Assembly (NCBI GenBank): GCA_001603505.1
Contig: LUZC01000006.1
Location: 1 to 35,217, forward strand
Reading direction: 5' to 3'
Length of the DNA: 35,217 nt
From: Bacteroidales bacterium Bact_11
GTDB lineage: Bacteria > Bacteroidota > Bacteroidia > Bacteroidales > UBA932
The notes beneath the pieces are model-generated. The model was not told the origin of the DNA. It ran no database searches and saw nothing but the letters and a program-made list of their open reading frames with translations. The translations under genes and the position numbers were made by a program. Of the stretch, positions 2,204 to 26,556 are shown one piece after another; within the stretch, counting starts at the first letter, position 1, and each line of letters starts with the position of its first letter.

Positions 2204-4006
2204 CTAAGCGGGCGGGGTGAAAATGGCGCCAAATTCGTCAAGGAGCAGGATCGTGAGAGATGCCCGGTCATAGACCGTGGCGCAGGCGGTATAGCAGCGC
2301 GAGAGGATAGCGGAGAAGAAGCGGCGGGCGTCGTCTTCCGCGAGGGCAGTCCAGAGTTCGCGGGCAAGCGTAAGGCGGTCGATGGCTTCGGCGGCGGCCG
2401 GCGAACAGCCAGCCCCGAGGACGACTTCCTTCAGGAATGCCTTGTTCATCACCACGCTCTTGCTGTGCGTATCGAGATGGCCTTCGGCAAGCTTGACAGC
2501 CTTGCCGAGCATGATGCCCATCGTCACCCGAGGCACATGCAGGTCGGAGGCAATCCTCAGCGTCTCACCGATGAAGTTGCCGTAATGGACGAAGGCCTGC
2601 GGCGGCAGTTCAGGGAAACGGCTCTTCAAAAAGGCCTCGCTTTTGGCCCCCGAATTGATGACCAGCTGCTGTGCGCCGACAGCGATGGCCACTTCGACTT
2701 CACGCCGGATGGCATCGACGAAGGCCTCGTTGGAAAACGGACGGACGATGCCAGAGGTTCCGATGATGGAAATGCCGTCCACGATGCCCAGTTTCGGATT
2801 GAAGGTACGCTGTGCGAGTTCACGGCCTCCCGACACAGAGACCGTGACGTCAAGGCCGCCGCTGTACAGGGCGGAAAGTTCCTGCGAGATCATCTGCTGC
2901 GGCACGCGGTTGATAGCTGGGCCACCGATCGGCAGGCCCAGGCCGGGGAGCGTGACGCGGCCAACGCCCTCCCCTTGCAGGAAATGGATGCCGGGCTTGT
3001 CGCTGAAAGCGACGGTAGAAACGATAGCGCGTCCGTTGGTGATATCGGGATCGTCGCCCGCGTCCTTGATGACGGTGGCGATGGCGGAACGGGCGTCCAG
3101 GCACCGGACTTCGGTCACAGGCAAGAACAAACGCTCGCCGTCGGGAAACAATACCCCGACCGTCTCCCCCGTCTCCTGTCCCAGCAACGCCATCAGCGCT
3201 GCCTTCGAAGCTGCCGTGGCGCAGGCGCCGGTCGTGAAGCCGCTGCGCAGCGGGAAGAAGCCGGGTACCAGCCGCTCGATAGCCTTGCGCAGGCCGTGTT
3301 CACCCGTCACCACTTCAAATCCGGAAGGCAAGGCCGGCCGGCGGACAGCATACAATGGTATGCCCGCCCCTCGCGCTGCCGCCCGCTTCTGCGAAAAACC
3401 GCCTGATTCGCCGCTCTCTTTCGTCAGGATGGCCTGCGGCCGCAGTCGCGCGATGAGCGCTGCCTCGTCGTCTTCTTCGTAATACATGAGCCTTGCCGGA
3501 TCGAAGCCCTGCTGCCGCGCCTTTTCCAGCGATTCGTCACGATGCAGGATGCGGAACCAGCAGTCGTGCTTCGACCAATAGTCACGCAGCTTGCCGATCG
3601 TCTGCACGCCGGTCAAGGCCAGCAACCGGGTAATGCCGTCGGCCTCCAGACGGAGAACGGCATCGGCATAGTCGTCACACCAGCGAATCCCACCGGCTTG
3701 ACCGGGCATCTCATAAATCCGTTCCACGCGTACCGCGGGCAGATCAAGCGACTCTGCCACAGCCGCGACGGTCCGATGGAGCTCCGTAGCGAACGGATGC
3801 GCCGCGTCCACCAGCAAACGGATCCCGTGTTCCTGACAGAACGCCGACATGGCCGGCTCATCCATCGCGCCGCTGATGTGCGTGCCATGCTTGCAGTCGA
3901 TCTGCTGCAAGTCGCCCCGTGTGGAATACCAATACGGCGATCCAGCCGCATCGGCCACCCGCACCGCGAGCCTTCCTTCCGTTGTTCCGCCAAGGATGAG
4001 AATCAT
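2204..4006 (-). CDS. cbiJD: CbiJ-CbiD fusion: cobalt-precorrin-6A reductase / cobalt-precorrin-5B C1-methyltransferase
   Basis: One 600-residue polypeptide carries two corrin-ring enzymes. Residues 1-245 are CbiJ/CobK (ILGGTTEGR nucleotide-binding start, DAAHPFA near 68, LTGVQTIGKL, KESGESGG), which reduces cobalt-precorrin-6A. From about 253 the protein is CbiD, announced by LRSGFTTGACATAA. CbiD uses S-adenosylmethionine to methylate C1 of cobalt-precorrin-5B, an enzyme specific to the anaerobic pathway. It is the last gene of the riboswitch operon. A 151-bp gap holding a palindromic element separates it from cbiGF; a short frame spanning that element ends in ATGA overlap with this start. 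No terminator is visible, because its stop touches that of the convergent lactonase-family gene. In pathway order CbiD acts just before CbiJ, so the fusion joins consecutive steps. Confidence 0.95.
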   Translation of the reverse strand: MILILGGTTEGRLAVRVADAAGSPYWYSTRGDLQQIDCKHGTHISGAMDEPAMSAFCQEHGIRLLVDAAHPFATELHRTVAAVAESLDLPAVRVERIYEMPGQAGGIRWCDDYADAVLRLEADGITRLLALTGVQTIGKLRDYWSKHDCWFRILHRDESLEKARQQGFDPARLMYYEEDDEAALIARLRPQAILTKESGESGGFSQKRAAARGAGIPLYAVRRPALPSGFEVVTGEHGLRKAIERLVPGFFPLRSGFTTGACATAASKAALMALLGQETGETVGVLFPDGERLFLPVTEVRCLDARSAIATVIKDAGDDPDITNGRAIVSTVAFSDKPGIHFLQGEGVGRVTLPGLGLPIGGPAINRVPQQMISQELSALYSGGLDVTVSVSGGRELAQRTFNPKLGIVDGISIIGTSGIVRPFSNEAFVDAIRREVEVAIAVGAQQLVINSGAKSEAFLKSRFPELPPQAFVHYGNFIGETLRIASDLHVPRVTMGIMLGKAVKLAEGHLDTHSKSVVMNKAFLKEVVLGAGCSPAAAEAIDRLTLARELWTALAEDDARRFFSAILSRCYTACATVYDRASLTILLLDEFGAIFTPPA

Positions 4007-4158
4007 TCTATACTATTTGTTAAAACAGGATATGTCTCTCTTTCAAGACCGTCTGCGCCCACGCAGCCGTGAGTGGGAGGGGCCCAAGCGCCCGGCGCTT
4101 GGGAGGGATAGGCCCCGAAGGGGCCGTAGTCTTGAAAGAGAGACATTCCTGCTTTCAT
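4003..4158 (-). CDS. Possible 51-codon coupling ORF spanning the palindromic element
   Basis: This frame starts at an ATG (4158-4156) overlapping the cbiGF stop as TAATG and ends at a TGA (4005-4003) overlapping the cbiJD start as ATGA. It therefore bridges the two genes with the overlaps typical of translational coupling. The peptide begins MKAGMSLFQDYGPFGAYP and ends ETYPVLTNSIE. It is rich in Gly, Pro and Ala, is almost entirely encoded by the palindromic element, and resembles no protein I know. The likeliest role is to keep ribosomes moving into cbiJD after the insertion; a functional peptide is less likely. Chance is possible, since a 51-codon open frame in GC-rich DNA is not rare. Translation is not shown by sequence alone. 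Confidence 0.35.
   Translation of the reverse strand: MKAGMSLFQDYGPFGAYPSQAPGAWAPPTHGCVGADGLERETYPVLTNSIE
4026..4151. mobile_element. Palindromic repeat element with long terminal inverted repeats, inside the operon
   Basis: Perfect 18-bp inverted arms, ATGTCTCTCTTTCAAGAC (4032-4049) and its reverse complement (4129-4146), extend outward as CAGGA (4026-4030) / TCCTG (4147-4151) with one bulged base. Inside are three hairpins: CTGCG/CGCAG (4053-4066), CCCAAGCGC/GCGCTTGGG (4083-4103) and GGCCCC-GAA-GGGGCC (4111-4125). As RNA it would fold into a closed cloverleaf-like multibranch structure in either orientation. It lies between cbiGF and cbiJD, where the other biosynthetic genes overlap or are 2-3 bases apart. 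That pattern suggests insertion of a small non-autonomous repeat (MITE- or REP-like). No transposase, and no second copy in this window. Alternatives: an internal attenuator or an mRNA-processing site. Confidence 0.6.
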
Positions 4159-5981
4159 TATTGCCTGAACAAATGTTTGAACTCGTGGGCGTAGAGCCGC
4201 GAGAGGCCCTCGCGGTTGCCGATGGCCTCGCCCACGACCAGTAGCGTCGTGAGTGTCAAATTGTTCTCGCGGACAATCTTCGCAAGGTCCTTCAGTTCGC
4301 CGCGATAGATCCGTTCTTCTTTCCAGGTCAGCTTGTAGCAGACCGCCACCGGCGTTTCCGGCGGATATGCCTGCAGCAGCTCGGCCTGCACCTCTTCCAC
4401 AATGGCGGCACTCAGGTAGATGCACATCGTGCTCCGCGACTGCGCCAACTTGTGGAGCTGCTCCCGTTCCGGCATCGGGGTCCTCCCTTCGCCGCGCGTG
4501 AGGATGATGGTCTGTACCTTCTCCGGGATGGTGAACTGTGACCGGAGCGCGGCCGCAGCCGCCTGGAAGGCCGAGATGCCAGGCGTGATGTGGTAGTGCA
4601 TCCCGTAGCGGTCGAAGAAAGCCATCTGCTCCTGGATGGCGCCGTAGATGCACGGATCGCCGGTATGGAGTCGCACGACGAGCAGTCCGTTGTCGTAAAA
4701 CTCCTTCATCAGCGCAAACTGCTTCTCCAGTTCCATCGAAGCAGAACTGCGCACCGTACAACCCGGCTTTGCATAATAAGTCAGTTCCACCGGCACAAGG
4801 CTGCCCGCGTAAAGGATCAGGTCGGCCTGCTGCAGGAAACGCTTGCCGCGCACAGACACCAGTTCAGGATCTCCCGGCCCGGCGCCCACAATTTCGATAT
4901 GGCCGCTGCGGACGGAGGATGCATCCTGCGCCAGGGCGAAGGTAAAGTCGTTGCCTTCGGTAAGCCTTCCTTTCTGTTTCTCGATCCTTAGCGGACCGCC
5001 GTGTGAGCCGACAAGAGCCGCTGCTTCAGCCACGCCGGCACTTCCAGTGGCGGCCAAAGCCTTCTCAGATGGATTCGGCACCGCAACGGCAGCCAGCGTC
5101 TCCGTTGGATAAATGGTCCCCTGCGCCTGTGGAAGACGGGCCAACAGGGCCTGAAACAACGGTTCATCCTTCTTGAGCTCGATGGTTCCGATGCTGGCGA
5201 TGGACAGCGGCGAGAAGCCGGCTTGCTGCACTGCCGCAACGATATGATCGGGTATCCCGTTCGGATCGCAGGCCTTCCGGCAGCCGAAACCCAGATGAAG
5301 TACGGGCGGACGGTAAGTGAGGGCAAGCGGAGCACCCGGCACATCGGGCATGACGAAAGGAGTGACGGCTATCAGAAGCGCCGAATCGGTCAGATTCAAA
5401 TCCTCGCGGCGATAGCAGATGCGCACATGTTCCGGGCAGGTACGCTCCAGATAGTCCGTGCCTGCATCGCGCACTTCCAGGAGCAGGACCGTGGGCTTCT
5501 TCTCCACGAAGGCAAAGATGGCGCGGTTCATCTGGGCAGGCGTTGCATCTGTTTGCCAGCCAAACTGGCGGCACAGGGTATCGAGCGCCCAAAGGCCTTC
5601 GTTGTCGCTCTGCGTGGTAACGACGGCTTCGCCTCCGATAAGAGTGGCCAATAGGCGGGCCAGGTCGTTGGCGCCGCCGACATGGCCGGAAACCACGGGA
5701 ACGACGAACTTTCCGGTGCTGTCGACGCAGACCACGGCAGGGTCTCGGTATTTGTTTACGAGGCACGGCGCGATGCTGCGGACGCAAATGCCGAGTGCGC
5801 CGATGAAAACGACGGCGTCGAATTCGGTCCAGTGCTGTTTCAGGAACGGCCCGTACGACCTTATCGCCGTACACCCGGGCACTTCGTTCTTCGAATAGAT
5901 TACGGCATCAACCCCCGCCGCTATGTTTTGCGCCAACGGGAGCGAGGATTCTGAAACAAGTATGATGGCTGTCTTTTTCAT
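4158..5981 (-). CDS. cbiGF: CbiG-CbiF fusion: cobalt-precorrin-5A hydrolase / cobalt-precorrin-4 C11-methyltransferase
   Basis: This 607-residue protein joins two consecutive steps of anaerobic ring contraction. Residues 1-355 are CbiG: a variable N-terminal domain, GALGICVRSIAP near 61, VSGHVGGANDLA near 97, and a C-terminal domain with LGFGCRKACDPNGI near 230. CbiG opens the lactone of cobalt-precorrin-5A and releases acetaldehyde. From about 361 the protein is CbiF/CobM, a SAM-dependent tetrapyrrole methylase (IEIVGAGPGDPELVSVRG, then LHTGDPCIYGA and ITPGISAFQAAAA), which methylates C11. Its ATG overlaps the cbiET stop (ATGA, 5978-5981). CbiG shows that this is the anaerobic route; the aerobic pathway uses CobG/CobZ instead. 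The downstream junction is interrupted by the palindromic element. Confidence 0.95.
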   Translation of the reverse strand: MKKTAIILVSESSLPLAQNIAAGVDAVIYSKNEVPGCTAIRSYGPFLKQHWTEFDAVVFIGALGICVRSIAPCLVNKYRDPAVVCVDSTGKFVVPVVSGHVGGANDLARLLATLIGGEAVVTTQSDNEGLWALDTLCRQFGWQTDATPAQMNRAIFAFVEKKPTVLLLEVRDAGTDYLERTCPEHVRICYRREDLNLTDSALLIAVTPFVMPDVPGAPLALTYRPPVLHLGFGCRKACDPNGIPDHIVAAVQQAGFSPLSIASIGTIELKKDEPLFQALLARLPQAQGTIYPTETLAAVAVPNPSEKALAATGSAGVAEAAALVGSHGGPLRIEKQKGRLTEGNDFTFALAQDASSVRSGHIEIVGAGPGDPELVSVRGKRFLQQADLILYAGSLVPVELTYYAKPGCTVRSSASMELEKQFALMKEFYDNGLLVVRLHTGDPCIYGAIQEQMAFFDRYGMHYHITPGISAFQAAAAALRSQFTIPEKVQTIILTRGEGRTPMPEREQLHKLAQSRSTMCIYLSAAIVEEVQAELLQAYPPETPVAVCYKLTWKEERIYRGELKDLAKIVRENNLTLTTLLVVGEAIGNREGLSRLYAHEFKHLFRQ

Positions 5982-7165
5982 TCGGCACGCTGGATTACAA
6001 TGGGATTGAACGCGTCGACGGTCACATGCATTTCGCCCGTGATGTGGCGACCGATGGCGGCAACGCCCTCACGGAAGAGTTCCTGGCTCTGGTCGCTGAC
6101 CGCGTTGAAGACGATGACGCCGCCCGGCAGGAGCACTTCGTCGATGCGACGGAGCATGTCGGCGAGCCGGCCGCCGTGGCCGCCGATGAAGACGGCGTCC
6201 GGGGCGGACAGGCCGCCGAGGTCAGCCTCCAGAAAATCGCCGATATGGACGTCGATGCCGGGGGCGCCGAACTTGCGGGCGTTTTTCTCCATCAGCTCCC
6301 GGCCGGCCTCGCGGATTTCAAATGACGTAACCGTCAGCTGCGGAAACTGGAGACGCGCTTCGATGGAAACAGATCCGGTGCAGAAGCCCACATCCCAGAA
6401 CGACCGGCGACGCGCCAGGTCGAGCTGGCTGAGCGTCAGCAGCCGGATCGGCATCTTGGTGATCATGTTCACGCGGTCGTCGAGCAACTCGAAATCGCGT
6501 TCCGGCAGGCCGAACGGATGCGGACGCAGCGAAGTCTGTTCCAGGATCAGGCAGTTCGGAAAAGCGAATTCCGCCTCCGCCGCTTTAGCCACGGAGAAAG
6601 ACCCGACCTGCTCCTCCTCTTCATTACCCAGACATTCCCCAACCGTCATCCGGTAGTTCTCATAGCCGTAATCCAGCATCCGTCGGGCAATCATTGCCGG
6701 CGTTTTCTGCCGGTCGGTCAGGACGCCGAGCAGTTTCTCGCCCTCGATCAGCGCCCTGTCGAACGCTTCCCAGGGACGTCCGGTCAGCGACACGGCCCGC
6801 ATATCGGCATAGGGCAGCAGCATCCGGTGCGCCAGCAGCTGCAGCGAATTGAATGCAGGAAAAACGGTAAGTTCCGCGTCGGGCAGCTTACGGCGGATGG
6901 TATTGGCAAATCCGAAGAACAGGGGATCTCCCGAAGCAAATACCACTACCTCCGGATGCCCGGCGTACCTCGCGAATACCGCGTCGAGCGGCACGGTGAT
7001 GTCGATCCACAGAGCCCCTTCCGGCAGTAACGGAGAGACGATTTCGTGGTGGCGCTTTCCCCCGGAAAACACGCGTCCCGCAGCAATGGCAGCGCGAACC
7101 TGCGGCGGGAACCAGACCTCCTGGGCGTCGGTCATACCGATGACGATGAAATGCTGACTACACAT
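5978..7165 (-). CDS. cbiET: CbiE-CbiT fusion (CobL-type): cobalt-precorrin-7 C5- and C15-methyltransferase
   Basis: This 395-residue bifunctional enzyme has the CobL arrangement. Residues 1-205 form a CbiE tetrapyrrole methylase (MCSQHFIVIGMTD, FASGDPLFFGFAN near 76, VFPAFNSLQLLAHRM near 101). From about 230 follows the CbiT domain, a Rossmann-fold SAM methyltransferase with motif WDVGFCTGSVSIEA near 257 and PDAVFIGGHGGRL further on. CbiE methylates C5, while CbiT methylates C15 and decarboxylates the C12 acetate. The start overlaps the cbiHC stop by 8 bases and the stop overlaps the cbiGF start by 4, so translational coupling is likely. Length is usual for CobL. No missing motif is seen. Confidence 0.95.
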   Translation of the reverse strand: MCSQHFIVIGMTDAQEVWFPPQVRAAIAAGRVFSGGKRHHEIVSPLLPEGALWIDITVPLDAVFARYAGHPEVVVFASGDPLFFGFANTIRRKLPDAELTVFPAFNSLQLLAHRMLLPYADMRAVSLTGRPWEAFDRALIEGEKLLGVLTDRQKTPAMIARRMLDYGYENYRMTVGECLGNEEEEQVGSFSVAKAAEAEFAFPNCLILEQTSLRPHPFGLPERDFELLDDRVNMITKMPIRLLTLSQLDLARRRSFWDVGFCTGSVSIEARLQFPQLTVTSFEIREAGRELMEKNARKFGAPGIDVHIGDFLEADLGGLSAPDAVFIGGHGGRLADMLRRIDEVLLPGGVIVFNAVSDQSQELFREGVAAIGRHITGEMHVTVDAFNPIVIQRAE

Positions 7166-8576
7166 CGCGGCCGGGTTTTAACGCTTCCGCGTCGTTGAAA
7201 CACAGGATCGAATTGACCAGCGTAGCGGCCAGATTACTGCCGCCCTTGCGTCCCTCGACGATAATCTTGGGAATGTCCTTGAAAGGCTTGACCATGTGCT
7301 TGCTTTCGCGCACGTGCACAAATCCCACCGGCGCGGCGACGATCCCCGCGGGAACGGCCTTGCCTTTGCGGATGAGACTGCAAAGATCCATCAGCGCCGT
7401 CGGGGCATTGCCGAACGCGAAGAGTGCGTCGGGATGTTCTTCCACCGCCAGCCGGATGCCGGCCTGTGTGCGGGTAATCCCCTGTTCCGCCGCCAGCGCA
7501 GCCACCCGTTCATCGTGCAGATAGCACTTCACCTCCACGCCGAGCCGCTGCAGCGCTCCCTTGCGGATGCCCGCCGCCACCATCGTCACATCGGTCACGA
7601 CGGCCTTGATGCGGCCTTCCGCAAAACCCGCATAGAGCGTTTCCATCGCACCGTCGTCCACCCGCAGGATGTTCTCCATATCAAAATCGGCCGTAGTGTG
7701 GATGGCGTGGAGCAGCGCCCATTTGCGGCCCAACGGGATATCAGGATGCCGCAGCTCCTTCTCAATGGTGCGGAAGCTCTCGATCATGATTTCCTGCCCG
7801 ATGCCTTTCGCACCCGTATCGCCGGTCTCCCGGTAATAGCCGCGCGGGGTAATGAACCTGCCCTCATAAATGTAGGACTGCGAATTGCCGATGAGCACCA
7901 CGGTAAACATGTCCACCTGCTCGGGATCGAATGCCCCCAGGGTGGTGAGCGTCACCTGCTGGTCGTCGCGGCCCGCCTGACGGACGAATCCCACCGAGGT
8001 CTCAGGGCTGCGGTGCTGCAGGAAGATTTCCTTCAGGCGATAGAGCTGCCAGTAGCGACCGTTGCTCTTCGGATTGTACACCGCCGTGATAAAGTCGCCC
8101 ACGGCAGCGGCCACGATGCGCCGCTCGATCTTGTCCCAAGGCGTCATCAGGTCGGACAGCGAAAGGATGCAGAGGTCGTGGCCGATGGGCGCACCGAGCA
8201 ACGAAGCAGCCTTCTGGAAGGCGCTGATGCCTGGCAGGACCTCCACTTCGACGTCACTCCCGCGCTCGCGTTTCATCTCCCAGATAAGCGGAGCCATGCC
8301 GTAGATGCCCGCATCGCCCGAACTCACCACACATACGGTCTTCCCCTCTTCCGCCCGCAGGAAGGCCTCCTCGGCCCGCTCCCGCTCCTTTTTCATCCCG
8401 GTATCCACGCACTCGGTGCCCGGCTGCACGAAGGGTTCGATGAATTGGAAATAATACTTGTAGCCAATGATGATGTCGGACTGCCGGACGGCCTCAAGCA
8501 CGGCAGGCGTAATGTCGTCCGCGCTTCCCGGCCCGATGCCGGCGACGATGATTTTGGGAGTATGCATAGTATTCAT
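7158..8576 (-). CDS. cbiHC: CbiH-CbiC fusion: cobalt-precorrin-3B C17-methyltransferase / precorrin-8 methylmutase
   Basis: A 472-residue fusion. Residues 1-248 are CbiH/CobJ (IIVAGIGPGSADDIT, VSSGDAGIYGMA near 84, VLPGISAFQKAASLLGAP near 113, ITAVYNPKSNGRYWQ), which methylates C17 and contracts the ring. From about 255 the protein is CbiC/CobH, the methylmutase that moves the C11 methyl to C12 (HAIHTTADFDMEN near 290, VVTDVTMVAAGI, GNAPTALMDL, PVGFVHVRESK, GGSNLAATLVNSI). The two reactions are not adjacent in the pathway, so this fusion is probably about stoichiometry. The ATG at 8576 is supported by its ATGA overlap with the cbiB stop; an internal Met three codons later is the alternative. 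Confidence 0.95.
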   Translation of the reverse strand: MNTMHTPKIIVAGIGPGSADDITPAVLEAVRQSDIIIGYKYYFQFIEPFVQPGTECVDTGMKKERERAEEAFLRAEEGKTVCVVSSGDAGIYGMAPLIWEMKRERGSDVEVEVLPGISAFQKAASLLGAPIGHDLCILSLSDLMTPWDKIERRIVAAAVGDFITAVYNPKSNGRYWQLYRLKEIFLQHRSPETSVGFVRQAGRDDQQVTLTTLGAFDPEQVDMFTVVLIGNSQSYIYEGRFITPRGYYRETGDTGAKGIGQEIMIESFRTIEKELRHPDIPLGRKWALLHAIHTTADFDMENILRVDDGAMETLYAGFAEGRIKAVVTDVTMVAAGIRKGALQRLGVEVKCYLHDERVAALAAEQGITRTQAGIRLAVEEHPDALFAFGNAPTALMDLCSLIRKGKAVPAGIVAAPVGFVHVRESKHMVKPFKDIPKIIVEGRKGGSNLAATLVNSILCFNDAEALKPGRDV

Positions 8577-9547
8577 TGTACACTTGTCAACAATAGTAGA
8601 CTGCCGGCATAGACGGCCATCCAGAACGATGCGGTCAACAGGACCATCAGGATTTCTGCGCCGCGGTTGATGCGGATGGCACGGGTCATATCGTCCGTGG
8701 TCAGCAGCCGGTCGTTTTCACCGATAAAGGGTTTCCAGACCTCCTCGCCGAAATAGTTGTGCGGACCGCCGAAACGGCAGTCGAGGATACCGGCGAGCGC
8801 GGCCTCGGGATGGCCGGAATTGGGGCTCAAGTGCTGCCGGCCGTACTTGCGGACGAAAGGCAGCAGGCCCGGCCGACCGGCCACCAGCAACATCAGCAAG
8901 GCCGTCAAGCGCGCCGGAACCCATCCGGCCACGTCGTCGAGCCGCGCGGCGAAACGACCGAATTCGAGATAGCGTTCGTTGCGGTAGCCGATCATCGAAT
9001 CGAGCGTATTGATCATCTTGTAGGCCATCATCCCCGGAGCGCCCAGCAGCGCCAGCCAGAAAAGCGGGGCGATGACGCCGTCGTTCAGGTTCTCGGCCAA
9101 TGTCTCAAGGGCGGCCGTACGAATCTCCTGCGGCGTCAACTCGGATGTATCGCGGCCCACGATGCGGGCTACCCGCGCCCTGCCCTCTTCCAGCGAACGG
9201 TCCACCGCTCGGAACACTTCGCGCACCTCGCGGATCAGCGTCGTGCCAGCCAGGCAGAAAAAGATCAGCAAAGTCTCCACGATTCGCACCAGCCAAACGC
9301 CCATACCCAACACCCGGCCCAACTTCCAACTGCCGTAGAGCAACGCAGCCGTGAGCACGAAAGTCCCGAGCACCAGCACAAGGGTGAGCCAGGCGCCCTT
9401 GCGGCGGCGGTGCGCCCCCTTGTTCCAGCGCTTCTCCCCGGCAGCGATCAGCTTGCCGAAGCCCACTACGGGATGCGGCAGATGGGCCGGATCTCCAAAG
9501 ATCAGGTCGAGCAGCCATCCGGCGAGGAGGGAGAAGAGTCGGACCAT
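8573..9547 (-). CDS. cbiB: Adenosylcobinamide-phosphate synthase CbiB
   Basis: An integral membrane protein of 324 residues, the usual CbiB/CobD-family length. It joins adenosylcobyric acid to (R)-1-amino-2-propanol phosphate, or a related aminoalcohol, to give adenosylcobinamide phosphate. Family marks include GWLLDLIFGDPAHLPHPV at the start, IRTAALETLAENLNDGVIAP near 140, YKMINTLDSMIGYRN near 175, and SPNSGHPEAALAGILDCRFGGPHNYFG near 240. Several hydrophobic stretches fit a polytopic inner-membrane enzyme. It lies directly downstream of the CobD-like aminotransferase (2-bp gap), which would supply its aminoalcohol phosphate, and overlaps cbiHC by 4 bases. Confidence 0.95.
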   Translation of the reverse strand: MVRLFSLLAGWLLDLIFGDPAHLPHPVVGFGKLIAAGEKRWNKGAHRRRKGAWLTLVLVLGTFVLTAALLYGSWKLGRVLGMGVWLVRIVETLLIFFCLAGTTLIREVREVFRAVDRSLEEGRARVARIVGRDTSELTPQEIRTAALETLAENLNDGVIAPLFWLALLGAPGMMAYKMINTLDSMIGYRNERYLEFGRFAARLDDVAGWVPARLTALLMLLVAGRPGLLPFVRKYGRQHLSPNSGHPEAALAGILDCRFGGPHNYFGEEVWKPFIGENDRLLTTDDMTRAIRINRGAEILMVLLTASFWMAVYAGSLLLLTSVQ

Positions 9548-9549
9548 AT

Positions 9550-10608
9550 TCAGCGGTTCAGACAGGTTTGTATGGCTGCGGCCAGGGCGTCGTTCGCTGC
9601 CGGCGTCTGGGTGGCGATGCGGAAACAGTGCTCGTCGAGGCCTTCGAAATTGGAGGCGTCGCGGATGAGGATGCCGTGGTTTTCAGCGAGCCGCTGCTTT
9701 AAATCGGCGGCGCTTCCGCAGGCAAGACGGCAGAGGAAGAAATGGGTCTGCGTCGGCTCGGCGGTAACACCCGGGATGGCGTTGATACGCGCGCGCAGGC
9801 GCTGCGTCTCGGCGAGCAGGGCCTTCAAGTCGATGGGTGCCGTATCGGGATGCGCCACGAGATAGCGTCCTGCCTCGATGGCCAGCGCGTTGACCGACCA
9901 GGGCATGCGCACGGCGCGGATTTTTTCGATCAGCTGCGGATGCGCGGTGACATAGCCCAGCCGGAGGCCGGGCATGGCATAGCGCTTGGTCATGGAGTGA
10001 AGTTGAAAGACGTTAGGTCGACCTGCCGCTTCGGCGGGGGTCAGCAAGGCCTCCTGCGTGAAGAAACCGTAGGACTGATCGATGACGAAAACGGTGTCGG
10101 GATTCCCGTCGATGAGGTTGTTCAGGTCGCCTTTCGGTATGACGGTGCCCGTCGGATTGTTCGGATTGCAGAGCCATACCATCGCTCGCTCCGTTGCTCT
10201 GGTTTTTCGTTCCGCACGCAGAAAAAATGCTCGCGGCCCCAAAAACCACCCGCAACTAGGCTCGCTACTGATTGTATGTCCGTATATGCGGCAAGCGTCG
10301 GCGTATTCGTTGAAAGTGGGCTGGAAAACGGTGGATCGGCTGCCGGCGAATGCCTGGGCGATGAGGTAGATGGCTTCGGTGGCGCCTGCCGTGACGTAAA
10401 CGGATGCCGGATCGATGCCCAGCAGGCAGGCCAGCTCTTTCTCCAGCGTGCAGGGCTCTGGTTCGGGATAGTGCCCGATGACGTCGAGGCGACCGCACAG
10501 ATGCGCCAGCAAGGCCTCCTGATCCACATATCCATAGACATTGGAGCTGAAATCGGCTCGAATTTCCCTTTGGAACCGATAACGGTCGTCGCCGTGTCCC
10601 TGTATCAT
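9550..10608 (-). CDS. cobD: CobD-like PLP-dependent threonine-phosphate decarboxylase
   Basis: A 352-residue fold type I aminotransferase-family protein. CobD of Salmonella decarboxylates L-threonine-O-3-phosphate to (R)-1-amino-2-propanol phosphate for the corrin side chain; the homologous HisC transaminates histidinol phosphate. Visible motifs are HYPEPEP near 47, YVTAGATEAIYL near 70, WLCNPNNPTG near 144, and the Schiff-base lysine in SMTKRYAMPGLRLGYVT near 208. Sequence alone does not fully separate CobD from HisC. The position between cobQ (ATGA overlap) and cbiB makes CobD much the better reading. No C-terminal zinc-binding extension of the long CobD type is present. Confidence 0.85.
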   Translation of the reverse strand: MIQGHGDDRYRFQREIRADFSSNVYGYVDQEALLAHLCGRLDVIGHYPEPEPCTLEKELACLLGIDPASVYVTAGATEAIYLIAQAFAGSRSTVFQPTFNEYADACRIYGHTISSEPSCGWFLGPRAFFLRAERKTRATERAMVWLCNPNNPTGTVIPKGDLNNLIDGNPDTVFVIDQSYGFFTQEALLTPAEAAGRPNVFQLHSMTKRYAMPGLRLGYVTAHPQLIEKIRAVRMPWSVNALAIEAGRYLVAHPDTAPIDLKALLAETQRLRARINAIPGVTAEPTQTHFFLCRLACGSAADLKQRLAENHGILIRDASNFEGLDEHCFRIATQTPAANDALAAAIQTCLNR

Positions 10609-12101
10609 CGTTCCTCGCTCAAGATTTTGTACAACAACGGAATATCGACATATCGGCGGACATGGTCGGCCAGGCGGTCGTATTGTTCCTCCTTGAAGGC
10701 GTGGTAGTCGAATGCGGCAGCCGCTTCGGTCAGTTTCTCAACGTGCGGTGCCAGCAGTTTGTCGATGAAAGCCGGATTGTCGAGGATGCCATGAATGTAG
10801 CTGCCCATGCACTTTTCGTCCACGATGCAGCCGTCCGGCTGGCCGTCTTCCAGCCTGTTGAGCGGCGCGTAGCCACTTCCCTCTTCGGGAAGGGTTTCAC
10901 CCATATGGATTTCATAACCCTCCATCGGGCCGCCCGTTCCATCCGACAGCGTGAAGTGAACCTGGCGCGTGACTTTCCCGGGCAGCATCGCCGTGGTCAT
11001 CGGCAGCAGGCCCAGGCCAGGCATCGCTTCGATGGAGCCCTCCACGTGGTGCGGATCGCGGATCTGCACGCCCATCATCTGGTAGCCGCCGCAGATGCCC
11101 AGCACCGAAGCGCCTTCGCGGCGGGCACGCAAGACTGCCTGCGCCACGCCGTTGCGCCGCAGCTCGTAAAGATCGTCGAGGGTGCTCTTAGTGCCTGGCA
11201 GGATGATCACATCGGCCTTGGCCAGCTCATCTACATTGTTGCTGTAGAACAGATGCACCCGCGGATCGCGCTCCAACACACCAAAATCCGTGAAATTGCT
11301 GATATGTCGCAGCAGTACCACCGCCACGTTGACCTTGCCCCGCTGCGCCGCGGCGGACTTGGCCGCCAGCGCCACGGAATCCTCTTCCTCGATGTGGATA
11401 TCATGGTAGTACGGCACCACGCCCAGCACGGGGATGCCGCACAGGTCTTCCAGCATTTTGCGTCCCTCCTCAAAGAGACGCAGGTCGCCGCGGAACTTGT
11501 TGATGAGGATGCCTTTCACATACTTCCGTTCTTCCGGCCGCAGCAGCATGATGGAGCCATACACACTCGCAAACACGCCCCCGCGGTCGATGTCGCCCAC
11601 CAGGAGGATGTCCGCGCCCGCATGCAACGCCATCGGCACGTTCACCAGGTCGGAATCGCGGAGGTTGATTTCAGCAAGGCTGCCGGCTCCTTCCATTACG
11701 ACGGGATTGAATCGCGCCGCCAGGCGGTCGTAGGCAGCATACACGGCTTCGCGGAGTTCGGAACGCCCTTCCTTTCGGAAATAGTCGTACGCGTCGCGGT
11801 TGCCGATGGGCCGGCCGTTCAGCACCACCTGTGAAGTATGGTCGCTCTGTGGCTTGAGCAGCAGCGGGTTCATGTCGGTATGGCAGGGTACGCCAGCCGC
11901 CTCGGCCTGGACAGCCTGTGCCCGGCCGATCTCCAGCCCGTCGGGCGTGGCAAACGAGTTGAGTGCCATGTTCTGCGCCTTGAAGGGTGCGGGCGTGTAA
12001 CCATCCTGCTTGAAGATACGGCACAAGGCCGTGGCAAGGATGCTCTTGCCTACGTCGCTGCCGGTGCCGGCCAGCATCACGGGATGGAGGCGTTCTTTCA
12101 T
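10605..12101 (-). CDS. cobQ: Adenosylcobyric acid synthase CobQ/CbiP
   Basis: This cytoplasmic enzyme amidates four side chains of adenosylcobyrinic acid a,c-diamide using ATP and glutamine. The product is 498 residues, usual for CobQ. It has a dethiobiotin-synthetase-like N-terminal half with P-loop AGTGSDVGKS (11-20), KAQNMALNS and GAGSLAEINL. The C-terminal glutamine amidotransferase has nucleophile Cys337 in LGICGGYQMMG and His in SYIHGILDN. The frame stays open upstream to 12278. I chose ATG 12101 because it starts the P-loop fold at the normal place and gives an ATGA overlap with the adenosyltransferase stop (12098-12101); the upstream extension is low-complexity, Pro/Arg-rich sequence antisense in character. 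Confidence 0.95.
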   Translation of the reverse strand: MKERLHPVMLAGTGSDVGKSILATALCRIFKQDGYTPAPFKAQNMALNSFATPDGLEIGRAQAVQAEAAGVPCHTDMNPLLLKPQSDHTSQVVLNGRPIGNRDAYDYFRKEGRSELREAVYAAYDRLAARFNPVVMEGAGSLAEINLRDSDLVNVPMALHAGADILLVGDIDRGGVFASVYGSIMLLRPEERKYVKGILINKFRGDLRLFEEGRKMLEDLCGIPVLGVVPYYHDIHIEEEDSVALAAKSAAAQRGKVNVAVVLLRHISNFTDFGVLERDPRVHLFYSNNVDELAKADVIILPGTKSTLDDLYELRRNGVAQAVLRARREGASVLGICGGYQMMGVQIRDPHHVEGSIEAMPGLGLLPMTTAMLPGKVTRQVHFTLSDGTGGPMEGYEIHMGETLPEEGSGYAPLNRLEDGQPDGCIVDEKCMGSYIHGILDNPAFIDKLLAPHVEKLTEAAAAFDYHAFKEEQYDRLADHVRRYVDIPLLYKILSEER

Positions 12102-12700
12102 TTCTGATTCTTGTATGCGAAAGCCTGCCAGCGTTCTTCGGGCCAGTCCTGCCGGTCGAGTTCGCAGCGGGCCATCAGGAACAGCAGGTCGGAGAGGCGG
12201 TTGATGTATTGCAGGATGGCTTCCGGCAGCGGATCCTCGCGGTGAAGGGTCCAGAGGCGGCGTTCGGCGCGTCGGCAAATGGCGCGGGCCATCTGCAGGT
12301 TTGCGGCCAGCGGGGTGCCGCCGGGCAGGATGAAATGGCAGCTGGGACCGGATTCGGCCGTGAGCGCGTCCATTGTGGCCTCACAGCCGGCCACGAGGTT
12401 GTCCGGCAGCGGGTTCGGGTTCTTGTCGCGGATATCCGACGGCGTGGCCACTTGGCTCATGACGACCATCAGGTTCGCCTGAACCTCATGCAAAATATCA
12501 TCAAAAGTCCCTTTCTCCCCACCTTCCGTCATGCCCGGCTTGACCGGGCATCCCAACATCGATCGAACCACCCCGATCTGGCAGTTCAGCTCGTCGAGCG
12601 AACCGTTGGCCTCGATGCGGATATCGTCTTTCGGCACCCGCTTTCCGCCGTGGATGCCGGTCGTTCCCTTGTCGCCCGTCCTGGTGTAGATCCGGTTCAT
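12098..12700 (-). CDS. Cob(I)yrinic acid a,c-diamide adenosyltransferase, PduO type, with a repeat-encoded insert
   Basis: Transfers the 5'-deoxyadenosyl group of ATP to cobalt(I) of the corrinoid, the last step before CobQ. The 200-residue protein has PduO-family marks: MNRIYTRTGDKGTTGIHGG, RIEANGSLDELNCQIGVVRS, FILPGGTPLAANLQMARAI, CRRAERRL, and YINRLSDLLFLMAR. Residues about 50-65 (GCPVKPGMTEGGEKGT) have no counterpart of that length in the family as I know it. They coincide with a palindromic repeat (12531-12551) translated in frame. The insert lies between the first two helices, probably in a surface loop, so activity is likely kept. The gene overlaps cbiK upstream and cobQ downstream by 4 bases each. 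Confidence 0.92.
   Translation of the reverse strand: MNRIYTRTGDKGTTGIHGGKRVPKDDIRIEANGSLDELNCQIGVVRSMLGCPVKPGMTEGGEKGTFDDILHEVQANLMVVMSQVATPSDIRDKNPNPLPDNLVAGCEATMDALTAESGPSCHFILPGGTPLAANLQMARAICRRAERRLWTLHREDPLPEAILQYINRLSDLLFLMARCELDRQDWPEERWQAFAYKNQK
12531..12551. repeat. Dispersed palindrome inside the adenosyltransferase coding region
   Basis: ATGCCCGG-CTTGA-CCGGGCAT has 8-bp perfect arms and a 5-base loop. A close relative with identical arms is at 33626-33647. On the coding (minus) strand it is read as CPVKPGM. Sequences of this form recur as dispersed repeats in many bacterial genomes. Finding it in frame within a conserved enzyme is the notable point. Confidence 0.7.
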
Positions 12701-24169: not shown

Positions 24170-26326
24170 TTATAAGAATAGTCTGAATTTCAAGTAAAAC
24201 GCCCGTCCGGGCTTTTGGAGCATATAGTTGTCGAACGCCAGGGCGTTCAGCAGGTTCGTGCATTCCAGCGACACGTTGTAGCGTCCGCTGCACCAGGAAT
24301 AGAGCAACGAGGCATTGGTGATGTGCTGCGTCGGCACTTTCGATTTGGAACTGGCCGAACCGTAGGCCGCCCAGGTAAGATAGAACCAGTGCACCCACTG
24401 GTAGTCGCACGAAAGGCGCAGCCGACTGTCGCGCAGCCCCACGTTGCGGAAAGTATAGGAAGCCTCCGTATTGCAATAGACCCACGGCCGGTTGGGCGTG
24501 CGGTTGCGATAAGTAATGGATTCGTCGCCCGACTGCGTGTACCGGCGCATGTCGCGGCTGTCATCGTAGCTGGCATTGGCCGCAAGATGAAGCTTGCCGG
24601 CCCAGTCGTAGCGCACTTCCCCGTCCACACCCTTGATATGGACGGCCGCCACGTTGACATATTGCATCATGCCCTCCGTCTCGGCCACCATAGCCTGGAT
24701 GAAATTGTCTACAAGCCGCATATAGCCGTTGAGCTCATAAGAAAGCACATGTCCGCCGCCCAGGTCCCACGCTCCGAACACGCCGAGATTGAAATTGTCG
24801 CTTTCCTCGGGTTCCAGCGTGAGATTGGGATATACCGTAGAGCCGTTGCCCAGCACTTCGCGTGAGATCGGAAGACGCACGCTGTGCTCGTACGATCCTT
24901 TGATCGACACCGGCGCGGAAATCTCGTAGCGGCTGCCCAGGCCGCCGCCCAGGTAGTTCTTCGTGCTTACCGGATCGACCACGGCTGAGCCGGTAGTCGA
25001 GGAAAGCTCGGTCTGCCCCACCCTTAAATGGTTCACGTAATCCTTGACAAAGAAAGCGTTCCGCATCCGTCCGTCGAAGAAAGACTGGTCGTACGACAGG
25101 CTGACCACATGCTTGGAAAGCCAGTCGCTGGTGGGCTCGAAGTCCTTGTCCCAGGCATCGGTCTGCTTGTTGCCCATCCGGTTGAGCTGGTAGTTGAGCG
25201 ACAGGTCGTGCCCCTCGGCAAGTTGGTAGCCCAGACCCGCGCGCACCACGGTCAGCGGGCGACGGTAATGGCGCCAGGTCTTGCCCCGGCGACGGATCTC
25301 GCTATAGGAGCCGTCGATATAGGTACCGTCCCAATAGTAGCGCCGGTAGGTGGTGTCGATGGTCTGGGAATGGTCCCAAGTGTGCGAAACCGTGAACTGT
25401 GCCCTGAGCCCTTCCGTCAGGAAATCCGCTTTCTCGTAACGGGCCGACACGTTGACCGATTCGGTGTGGCGCTCTGCCATGCCGATGACATGGTCCTGCG
25501 TGGCACCCGTCTGTATCTCCTTGTCAATCTTCGACACCGATGCGGATACGAAAAAGACATCCGCCCAGGAACGGTCGGCCACTCCCGCCTCCAATTGCCC
25601 GAAGAGCGAGAGGTAGTCGTCGTGGAAGCGCGGCAGATCGGTGATGATGAACGCCGTGCGTTCGGCATTACGCACCTTCACGTCGCGCATGATGTAGTCG
25701 TTTTTGGAATAATTCGCGCTGATGACGGGACGGATGATAAGGCCCGTCTTCTTTCCCGTGTAGCTGGCGCTGAAATCGGCCTTGTGGGTGTGGAAAGAAC
25801 CGATGCCGTAGGAAAAATCAAGGTAGTTGCGATGCTGTCCCCTGGTGATAATGTTGATGGCCCCGCCCAGTGCGTCACTGCCAAGGCTGGCGGGAATCAC
25901 GCCTTTGTAGATTTCAACCCGCTCGATCAGGTTGACCGGCAGGTTGGCCAACGTGATGCCGCTGCCTTTGGCATCAAGCGGCATGCCGTCCAGGAAATAA
26001 CGGATGGAATTGCCCGACATCCCGTTGATCGACAGGTCGAAATCGCTGCCTACACCACCCTCCTCGCGAATGCGGATGCCGGAAGTGCGATCGATGGCCG
26101 AAGCGATGCTGCTCAGCGTGCTGGCCTGGAGACGGATGTTGACGCCCCCTACGGCGAAGGCGCCTTCCCGGAGCAGCTGCTCCTGGCTTTTGGCCGTCAC
26201 CACCGACTGCTGGAGCGCAAGCGTATCGTCCAATGCGCCGGACACCCTCAAAGAGTCCTGTGCAAAGGCTGTCCCGCAAAGGCTCACAGCCAGAAGGATC
26301 ATTGTCCAACTATGTCTGAAACCCAT
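24170..26326 (-). CDS. TonB-dependent receptor, first gene of the riboswitch operon
   Basis: Outer-membrane active transporter of 718 residues. Signal peptide MGFRHSWTMILLAVSLCGTAFAQ; plug domain with AIDRTSGIRIREEGGVGSDFDLSI, GMSGNSIRYFLDGMPLD, IERVEIYKGVIPASLGSDALGGAINIIT; then a 22-strand-type barrel ending in an aromatic C-terminus (AFYLKFRLFL). Being the first gene after the cobalamin riboswitch, it is the best corrinoid-receptor candidate in the window. Together with the following lipoprotein it would form a receptor-lid pair like BtuB-BtuG of Bacteroides. Pairing with a DUF4374-like protein also recalls XusA-XusB, so a metallophore substrate remains a lesser possibility. Confidence 0.88.
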   Translation of the reverse strand: MGFRHSWTMILLAVSLCGTAFAQDSLRVSGALDDTLALQQSVVTAKSQEQLLREGAFAVGGVNIRLQASTLSSIASAIDRTSGIRIREEGGVGSDFDLSINGMSGNSIRYFLDGMPLDAKGSGITLANLPVNLIERVEIYKGVIPASLGSDALGGAINIITRGQHRNYLDFSYGIGSFHTHKADFSASYTGKKTGLIIRPVISANYSKNDYIMRDVKVRNAERTAFIITDLPRFHDDYLSLFGQLEAGVADRSWADVFFVSASVSKIDKEIQTGATQDHVIGMAERHTESVNVSARYEKADFLTEGLRAQFTVSHTWDHSQTIDTTYRRYYWDGTYIDGSYSEIRRRGKTWRHYRRPLTVVRAGLGYQLAEGHDLSLNYQLNRMGNKQTDAWDKDFEPTSDWLSKHVVSLSYDQSFFDGRMRNAFFVKDYVNHLRVGQTELSSTTGSAVVDPVSTKNYLGGGLGSRYEISAPVSIKGSYEHSVRLPISREVLGNGSTVYPNLTLEPEESDNFNLGVFGAWDLGGGHVLSYELNGYMRLVDNFIQAMVAETEGMMQYVNVAAVHIKGVDGEVRYDWAGKLHLAANASYDDSRDMRRYTQSGDESITYRNRTPNRPWVYCNTEASYTFRNVGLRDSRLRLSCDYQWVHWFYLTWAAYGSASSKSKVPTQHITNASLLYSWCSGRYNVSLECTNLLNALAFDNYMLQKPGRAFYLKFRLFL

Positions 26327-26368
26327 CGATTCACTGAGCCCTTATTACCCGAGCGGCTCGAAAAATCA

Positions 26369-26544
26369 ATGATTTCGGCAGGTCTTCTGGCTTGTCCCCT
26401 CTCCGGCGTCTTCCCACCTTGCGGCAGTGACTGCAGAGTGTCGGAGCGATTCACGGGACTTACAGCAGCGGTGTCTGCTCAGGATTCCCACCTGATTCCC
26501 TTTTCATCCGTGTTTCCGGCAGGAAAAACGGACACCGAAATCAT
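26369..26544 (-). promoter_or_regulatory. Cobalamin riboswitch (adenosylcobalamin-sensing aptamer)
   Basis: Read on the minus strand: AAAAGGGAATCAGGTGGGAA and further core sequence, then GCAAGGTGGGAAGACGCC, ending in the B12 box AGCCAGAAGACCTGCC. All are conserved aptamer elements. Ten perfect base pairs close P1: ATGATTTCGG (26544-26535) with CCGAAATCAT (26378-26369). The 42 bases from the aptamer to the receptor ATG hold two mutually exclusive small hairpins: CGAG/CTCG (26360-26350) and GAGCC (26359-26355) with GGCTC (26340-26336). There is no U-run, so control of translation initiation seems more likely than termination. It should lower expression of the whole minus-strand operon when cobalamin is plentiful. 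Confidence 0.96.
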
Positions 26545-26548
26545 CCCG

Positions 26549-26556
26549 CAAAGATA
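26549..26556 (-). promoter_or_regulatory. Probable -7 promoter element of the cobalamin operon
   Basis: TATCTTTG on the minus strand matches TAnnTTTG and ends 4 bases before the first base of riboswitch P1, so transcription would begin essentially at the aptamer. The placement relative to P1 makes this the most convincing promoter in the window. The upstream T-rich stretch lacks a clean TTTG -33 box. Confidence 0.65.

Follow-up and report, generated by a model that had tools for sequence, protein, structure and literature searches.

What is a long palindrome doing between two genes of a tightly packed cobalamin operon, and how do its two sides stay paired? The window (the whole stretch of DNA analysed, 35,217 nucleotides) carries cbiGF, with CbiG and TP_methylase domains (4158..5981, minus strand), and cbiJD, with CbiJ and CbiD domains (2204..4006, minus strand). 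Between them lies a palindromic element of 126 bp (4026..4151, assigned to neither strand), delimited by the arms read from the sequence and by the fold. Upstream in the cbi run (ORFs from 4158 to 12278), neighbouring genes share 4-8 nt or stand 2 nt apart, in keeping with the close packing that the initial annotation described. A frame of 51 codons on the minus strand (4003..4158) runs through the element and bridges the two genes, starting in a TAATG overlap with the cbiGF stop and ending in an ATGA overlap with the cbiJD start, as was first reported.

Structurally, the element consists of two perfect 18-bp arms around a core. The left arm, P1 (4032..4049, plus strand), has an outer part unlike the arms at other loci, and pairs with the right arm, P1' (4129..4146, plus strand). 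Beyond a one-base bulge (T4031), the outer extension CAGGA (4026-4030) pairs with TCCTG (4147-4151), which brings the total to the 126 bp originally estimated. The core of 79 nt (4050..4128, plus strand) is conserved across copies and inverted between species at other loci. It contains the inner hairpins P2 (CTGCG-CCCA-CGCAG; 4053..4066), P3 (CCCAAGCGCC/GGCGCTTGGG; 4083..4103) and P4 (GGCCCC-GAA-GGGGCC; 4111..4125), and the superfamily module GGGAGGGGCCC-hairpin-GGGAGGG (4075..4107), all given on the plus strand. Covariation supports P3 and also P4, the latter mainly through one pair, while P2 is nearly invariant and therefore receives no covariation support. All three hairpins of the initial annotation can be drawn, but the minimum-energy fold keeps P3 and P4 and replaces P2 with the alternative pairing CCCAC/GTGGG. 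As RNA, the element folds at -76.3 kcal/mol on the minus strand and -78.3 kcal/mol on the plus strand (z about -7.8), and 0 of 200 shuffles were as low.

A dispersed repeat family and its empty sites

The left part of the core has 50 matches in 11 of the 40 genomes of the genus, and a wider (superfamily) pattern is present in 10 of the 25 genera of the family. Window-type matches number 11 per genome at most, below typical REP numbers. The core measures 73-84 nt across copies and is nearly invariant in sequence, a conservation to which gene conversion between copies may contribute. No plasmid match of the element was found, viral contigs held 0 window-type cores, and the open-licence library searched yielded no description of this element. 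Two of the 50 core matches, with 3 mismatches (G032:C7 and G034:C2:63078), stand outside the 48 copies, of which 45 were analysed. The three rows left out, L004 (an incomplete copy), L177 (mis-registered by a one-base arm shift) and L179 (core interrupted), are absent from alignment A1 and from the stop-frame, orientation-flip and outer 10-mer counts; L209 and L116 are one copy, counted once.

The cbiGF-cbiJ junction was compared in 23 genomes, its own included. The genes overlap or leave a gap of 1-3 nt in 17, leave 9 nt in G003, and are separated by longer spacers in five; the sister species G028 is without the element at this junction. Where cbi and hydF junctions are empty in relatives, the genes abut with 0-3 nt between them. 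The reading that took in the hydF junctions covers 18 of 28 matches, all but ten weak ones (E above 1e-4), and a start was obtained in 14 of those 18; the cbi tree was built on DNA, and 12 of its 20 inner branches are open. Palindromes consisting of arms alone occur in G018, G039 and G011, and we infer that they are scars. Relatives thus carry either empty sites or arms-only palindromes, and therefore the arms arrived with the element. The initial annotation had proposed an inserted non-autonomous repeat, and both the multiple copies and the junctions empty in relatives bear this out. With regard to MITE-type features, the outer arms are not common to loci, and ATG stands on both sides at several junctions as judged by eye, for example ACGATG at the hydF junction of G011.

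Covarying arms and inverted cores

The arms differ from locus to locus and stay paired. Of the 1834 cells of alignment A1, which covers 45 window-type copies, 98.6% are paired, with two-sided change in 28 pairs and 345 cells. Four of five measures were reached by 0 of 500 shuffles and the fifth by 1 of 500, and slid controls paired at 35.5-45.1%. Across 48 copies, three of them mis-registered, the two arms of one copy pair at 0.85 at least out to bp 25, and arms of different copies pair at 0.28-0.41 from bp 18 on. Arm length has a median of 26 bp and lies between 25 and 28 in 33 of 45 copies. The inner part of about 9 bp is largely common between loci, and a residual consensus reaches to about bp 17. 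The outer 10-mers, 42 distinct ones among 45 copies, are shared in three cases, all orthologous pairs. No outer 10-mer was common to non-orthologous copies among the 45, and therefore recent transposition with the arms carried along is not seen.

Between orthologues, the two arms change in concert. Over 44 orthologous pairs, which are not independent inside one set and include no entry from set I (L177), arm positions differ in both arms 305 times, in one arm 31 times and in neither 632 times. The same pairs show 0-3 differences in the 36-nt P2 block. The core is inverted in 22 of the 44, and its orientation is opposite between species at 6 of 11 orthologous loci; the genomes are MAGs or drafts, so that a mis-assembled inversion is possible at any single locus. 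In sets D and J, from the sister species G028 and G039, the core is reversed and 20 of 22 arm positions are kept. Because the arms are nearly unchanged, the core flipped in place, and in set J an arm mismatch swapped together with it. This flip of a segment between inverted repeats is seen between species only. Neither the locus-specific, covarying arms nor the in-place inversion figured in the initial annotation.

Proposed template switching and alternative explanations

We lean, with moderate confidence, towards a joint reading in which the element belongs to a family of REP-like palindromic repeats scattered through gut Bacteroidales and arrived by insertion, with template switching homogenising the arms and inverting the core, and perhaps a putative hairpin-binding protein keeping the core constant. 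In every copy, a constant and structured core of 73-84 nt is enclosed by a stem of about 26 bp; the stem sequence is largely unconstrained, and its two sides remain complementary. The hairpin would extrude during replication, and the polymerase would change template between the two arms. Such a switch would correct one arm from the other, and a switch between strands would turn the spacer round and flip the core. That the arms stay matched while the core flips would thus be explained by template switching at the extruded hairpin. The inversion could alternatively arise through homologous recombination or through a protein that acts on the core. The constancy of the core would reflect a protein that recognises it as folded DNA whichever way round it lies; a Y1/HUH (RAYT-like) enzyme, which would once have spread the element, is a possible candidate. 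Against such a link, no window-type core was present within 400 nt on either side of 35 Y1 genes (best score 11.5 vs 62 further away). Of 40 Y1 loci, 4 had a wide-pattern match at a distance of up to 3 kb, with 897 nt as the shortest, and in G021 there are 22 superfamily matches and no Y1 match. The flanks and the distance of the nearest match do not support a direct linkage of the element to Y1 genes. Of the suggestion that a RAYT/Y1-type transposase might be encoded, the occurrence of such genes in the genus stands, but none adjoins the element in the Y1 loci examined.

More tentatively, and as a proposal that we would rate below even chances, the family may represent a class of bacterial repeat that inherits its information mainly in the loop, with a self-templating stem and a loop that flips. 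Nearly any stem sequence would serve, because each arm would be rewritten from the other, and that same mechanism would turn the loop round in place at many loci. The core might act as an active protein site and favour switching, and thereby the persistence of the element, with recognition through the spacer in a reversal of the inverton design.

Unlikely, though the strongest of the alternatives, is an enzymatic inverton: the core would be recognised and flipped by a site-specific recombinase or HUH nuclease, and the arms would only be the region of exchange. In-place inversion at several loci and the conserved core are in its favour, as are Y1 genes, which are present in 27 of 40 genomes and tend to co-occur with the superfamily (Fisher p 0.0011, phylogeny ignored). 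However, invertases are reported to bind motifs inside inverted repeats (PMC11892184), and the repeats here vary by locus.

A structured regulatory RNA, with arms that covary for folding of the transcript and an element that sets mRNA stability or the level of the last gene, is improbable. The very stable fold, the strong covariation and the position between operon genes would all suit it, but strong covariation does not by itself imply a functional RNA. Against it, both orientations of the core are read at orthologous loci, the sister species lacks the element at the same junction, and G-T occupies just 9 of 990 stem cells vs 5 for A-C. These few wobbles and the lack of a clear strand bias in the stem are as DNA-level correction predicts. 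Rfam 15 left the element unmatched, both in the window at gathering score, where a cobalamin riboswitch elsewhere was matched, and in ten related loci at E up to 1, where the 5S rRNA in L097 was matched. These searches give no support to a known RNA family.

The initial annotation itself had proposed a selected translational linker, whose copies persist where the coupling frame stays open, and this we regard as somewhat less probable again. The cbi junction is bridged in four of the five species with a spacer of at least 28 nt (G000, G039, G018 and G007, and not G011), with chances of a bridging frame in shuffled spacers of.024 in G000,.031 in G039,.155 in G018,.80 in G007 and.133 in G011. In set A, the element is read in frame into the next gene in all six species (class 'fused'), and these copies lead into a signal-peptide-like start. 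In 37 of 45 copies, none of the three frames on the minus strand of the core contains a stop, which could help a linker and for the same reason makes the 51-codon frame alone weak evidence. As a general rule, though not at the cbi junction, the linker fails by the refuting condition that the initial annotation had set: bridging frames are found in 23 of 69 locus-and-strand rows in the real orientation vs 25 after in-silico flipping of the core, so that copies have no preference for open frames. Of 21 orthologous copies in five sets (A-E), 12 have '+' as the sense strand and 9 the stop-free '-', and at the hydF junction stops lie within the core in G028 and G007 (L202, L208). What stands of the proposal is the bridging at the cbi junction, and this frame probably came about incidentally, from a core with few stops and from retention of the start codon at the former overlap; it may allow coupling and does not require selection for it.

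Finally, insertion into pre-existing palindromes such as terminators, with arms that belong to the target, would account for arms unique to each locus, but is rejected as extremely improbable, since the empty cbi and hydF junctions leave no room for a palindrome, most arms share a length of 25-28 bp, and the residual arm consensus extends across loci.

Comparison with known systems and significance

Like REP, BIME and REPIN sequences with their RAYT (TnpA_REP) transposases, the elements are short, dispersed, non-autonomous, intergenic palindromic repeats kept over speciation, in a genus where Y1 genes are present. They differ in size, at about 126 bp vs 20-40 bp for REP (PMC3733652), in having no Y1 gene found alongside, in their locus-specific, covarying arms, and in their invertible core. 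A REP carries GTAG or GGAG at the foot of a 20-40-bp hairpin, whereas the 126-bp, multi-branched element has GGAG before P3 and GTAG after P4. TnpA_REP subclass 2.6 of Bacteroidetes (RAYT group 5) shares the host phylum and the 'atypical secondary structures', which are reported to flank the Y1 genes and have copies elsewhere in the genome (PMC6006769). Its proteins are given there as 179 aa with NH[LIV]H and YIH[QN]NP (PMC6006769), while most of the nine Y1 proteins compared here measure 303-312 aa; DHIH occurs in six of the nine and YLYNNP in seven, and no window-type core was found in their flanks.

Invertons of Bacteroidales likewise place inverted repeats of 10-40 nt around an invertible segment (PMC11892184), but the present element has the reverse design, a conserved spacer between locus-specific repeats. 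No recombinase motif common to the inverted repeats was found among the 45 copies, where outer 10-mers are shared by orthologues only. Rickettsia palindromic elements are also palindromic repeats and may sit within genes in the reading frame, a likeness to the copies of set A. They differ from the present family, which belongs to another phylum and has locus-specific arms and a core that flips.

A further parallel is found in template-switch quasipalindromes. Template switching between inverted repeats is reported to homogenise arms and invert spacers in yeast (PMC8604942), and the creation of hairpins, compensatory change and rare loop inversion are described in PMC8794818. The concerted arm change and the spacer inversion with arms kept are the same. 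Those cases are isolated events in the coding DNA of yeast, or concern rRNA genes and loops that mostly have four bases, whereas the present element forms a repeat family with a core of 73-84 nt at many loci in many species. According to PMC8794818, no evidence for template switching could be stronger than compensatory change together with loop inversion, and such cases were extremely rare in that study. The present repeat family combines the two at several loci of related species, and its constant core serves as an internal ruler. It is therefore well suited, as a natural test case, to asking how pairing in DNA hairpins is kept perfect, and makes testable how frequently bacterial DNA flips in this manner and whether HUH proteins are involved.

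The element and its dispersed family

The palindromic element (126 bp, 4026..4151) lies between two minus-strand genes, cbiGF (4158..5981), with CbiG and TP_methylase domains, and cbiJD (2204..4006), with CbiJ and CbiD domains. The architecture first described for it is all present, namely perfect 18-bp arms, an outer extension that contains a single bulge and brings the total to 126 bp, and three inner hairpins (P2, P3 and P4) in the core between the arms. The fold of this stretch is far below that of shuffled sequences on both strands. A cobalamin riboswitch (26360-26554, minus strand) stands upstream of the element on the same strand, directly upstream of a minus-strand ORF starting at 26326.

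The element is a member of a family of dispersed hairpins in which the core is fixed but flips and the arms are free in sequence yet matched to each other. That it is an inserted repeat, as the initial annotation held, is borne out by its further copies in its own genome and genus and by empty junctions in relatives. A sequence search of its own genome (G000) gave two more copies that are nearly complete, another that is truncated, and some weaker fragments, and matches at E <= 0.001, many of them short and weak, occurred in 19 of 100 genomes (own included), every one in the same genus. When the left part of the core served as a pattern (at most three mismatches), it matched 50 times in 11 of the 40 genomes of the genus, and its reversed control did not match. 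A wider pattern, GGGAGGGGCC-N4-34-GGGAGGG, which defines a superfamily, was present in 27 of these 40 genomes (two control matches) and, across the family, in 33 of 119 genomes and 10 of 25 genera (control matches 0). The nearest named records are MAGs titled Bacteroidales bacterium, and the labels of several mention rumen, omasum, reticulum or red deer. No published description of the hairpin family was found by title or abstract opening within an incomplete coverage of the literature.

Three superfamily copies follow one another at G028:C5:68435-68832, spaced 186-187 nt, and a close (window-type) copy at G028:C39:174370 (L179) breaks off after P3 begins, where roughly 100 nt of different sequence precede GGGATAGGCCCC, possibly a nested insertion. 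Five viral contigs (L371, L403, L347, L350, L333; GC 0.67-0.73) carry a module GGGAGGGGCCC-hairpin-GGGAGGG, with TGAGGG or AGAGGG after it and a CCCCTCTCCC/GGGGAGAGGG-like hairpin before it, in up to 6 copies per 14 kb and mostly lacking long outer arms; in such GC-rich, phage-like DNA the module may be either shared or convergent with the superfamily.

Gain and loss are visible at two junctions. At the cbi junction the genes overlap or lie 1-3 nt apart in 17 of 23 genomes; G000 and G039 carry full elements, G018 has a palindrome made up of arms only, G011 has a different palindrome, and G007 has a remnant of the left half. The DNA tree places G018 together with G028 and G039 (100/99), and G028 has no element here. 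At the hydF junction, where the gene was named from the sequence MERIHIAFFGPTNSGKS rather than by family search, five species have full elements, G039 and one G018 contig have scar-like short palindromes, and G036 and G027 have different short spacers. The junction is empty (overlap or 1-2 nt) in the other G018 contig, G008, G034, G001 and G024, and no start was called in G033, G004, G000 and G023. Since relatives have empty cbi and hydF junctions, arms and core arrived together. The short palindromes are probably deletion products, and they could instead be other insertions or earlier states. The two G018 hydF contigs, L320 and L297, of which one bears the arms-only palindrome and the other is empty, belong to a single MAG and may reflect a mix of strains, contamination or a further copy of the gene.

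Matched arms and an inverting core

Of 48 window-type copies gathered, 45 were used for core, arm and alignment counts. Their cores (73-84 nt) are nearly invariant, and their arms are locus-specific, with a median of 26 bp and 25-28 bp in 33 copies. In the alignment, 98.6% of 1834 cells are paired, with two-sided changes in 345; among 500 shuffles, four of five measures were reached by none and the fifth by one, and sliding the partners by 1-3 columns lowered paired cells to 35.5-45.1%. Arms taken from different copies pair at 0.28-0.41 from bp 18 outward (48 copies, three mis-registered), and the arm consensus TGTTTCT persists in part up to about bp 17 and is almost gone further out. Stem cells (n=990) comprise 964 Watson-Crick, 9 G-T, 5 A-C and 12 other combinations. 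Covariation also extends to P3 and P4; P2 scarcely varies, so that covariation speaks neither for nor against it.

Eleven sets of orthologous loci (A-K) were obtained from blastn of flanks, the grouping being our own. Species differ in core orientation in six of them (A, B, C, D, F, J), and the other five (E, G, H, I, K) show no difference. Between the sister species G028 and G039 the core is reversed in sets D and J while 20 of 22 arm positions are kept; in sets A and I both share a single orientation. The arm mismatch of set J travels with the core, which would place the exchange point further out in the arm. Over 44 orthologous pairs, not independent within a set, 305 arm positions changed on two sides and 31 on one, and in the P2 block 0-3 of 36 positions changed.

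A long P3 hairpin, shared by five of six set A copies and present in no other of the 45, speaks against wholesale conversion from other window-type copies; the argument is only modest because P3 hairpins resembling it are seen elsewhere in the superfamily (matches G011:C24 and G024:C148). Other subfamilies (L019-L036, L071-L097) also have long, locus-specific arms and conserved inner loops, such as TTGCAGG/CCTGACGCG and GCGCGGGTGGG/CCCAGAGCGC; two of their four between-genome orthologous pairs are inverted (L089/L091 and L090/L147, each by one flank only).

Reading frames through the element

The 51-codon minus-strand frame, with its TAATG and ATGA overlaps, is indeed present, and it had been proposed to act as a translational linker. 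A bridging frame does exist in four of five cbi spacers, but across the tested copies flipping the core in silico makes no difference to bridging (23 of 69 rows as found vs 25 of 69 flipped, the rows covering both strands at many loci and hence including some that do not represent real gene pairs). In 37 of 45 copies the core's minus strand is open in every frame, which amounts to about one fact rather than 45 because the cores are near-identical; the plus strand is stop-free in none of the 45. In set A the frame through the element continues into a signal-peptide-like start in six of six species (class 'fused'), and this reading is kept after the core flip. The insertion itself is real, and it is of more interest than a linker role.

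Y1 genes and probable template switching

Genes for Y1 (PF01797), a RAYT-like transposase, occur in 27 of the 40 genomes of the genus, 25 of them above the family cut-off. Y1 and the superfamily are both present in 23 genomes, only one of them in 4 and 4, and neither in 9 (Fisher p 0.0011, phylogeny not corrected). Among the 70 flanks belonging to 35 Y1 genes, 21 contain a perfect inverted repeat of at least 12 bp (vs none of 33 random stretches), and none holds a window-type core. At L136, L137, L159 and L174, Y1 genes of about 305-330 aa have complex inverted-repeat structures on one or both sides, unlike the window type. Among published accounts, long inverted repeats are described on the flanks of RAYT genes (PMC3733652), and subclass 2.6 of Bacteroidetes is reported to have flanking structures of an atypical kind (PMC6006769). 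The conservation of the core would fit best with a putative protein that reads the folded DNA in either orientation.

For the concerted arms and the inversion of the core, we infer that template switching is the likeliest cause; switching between the arms would yield both matched arms and an inverted core. PMC8794818 ascribes new and maintained hairpins to template switching and names compensatory change with loop inversion as what would be its strongest support, yet found that combination extremely rare. In yeast, template switching between inverted repeats is reported to give concerted arms and spacer inversion (PMC8604942), and both of these products are shown by the element family.
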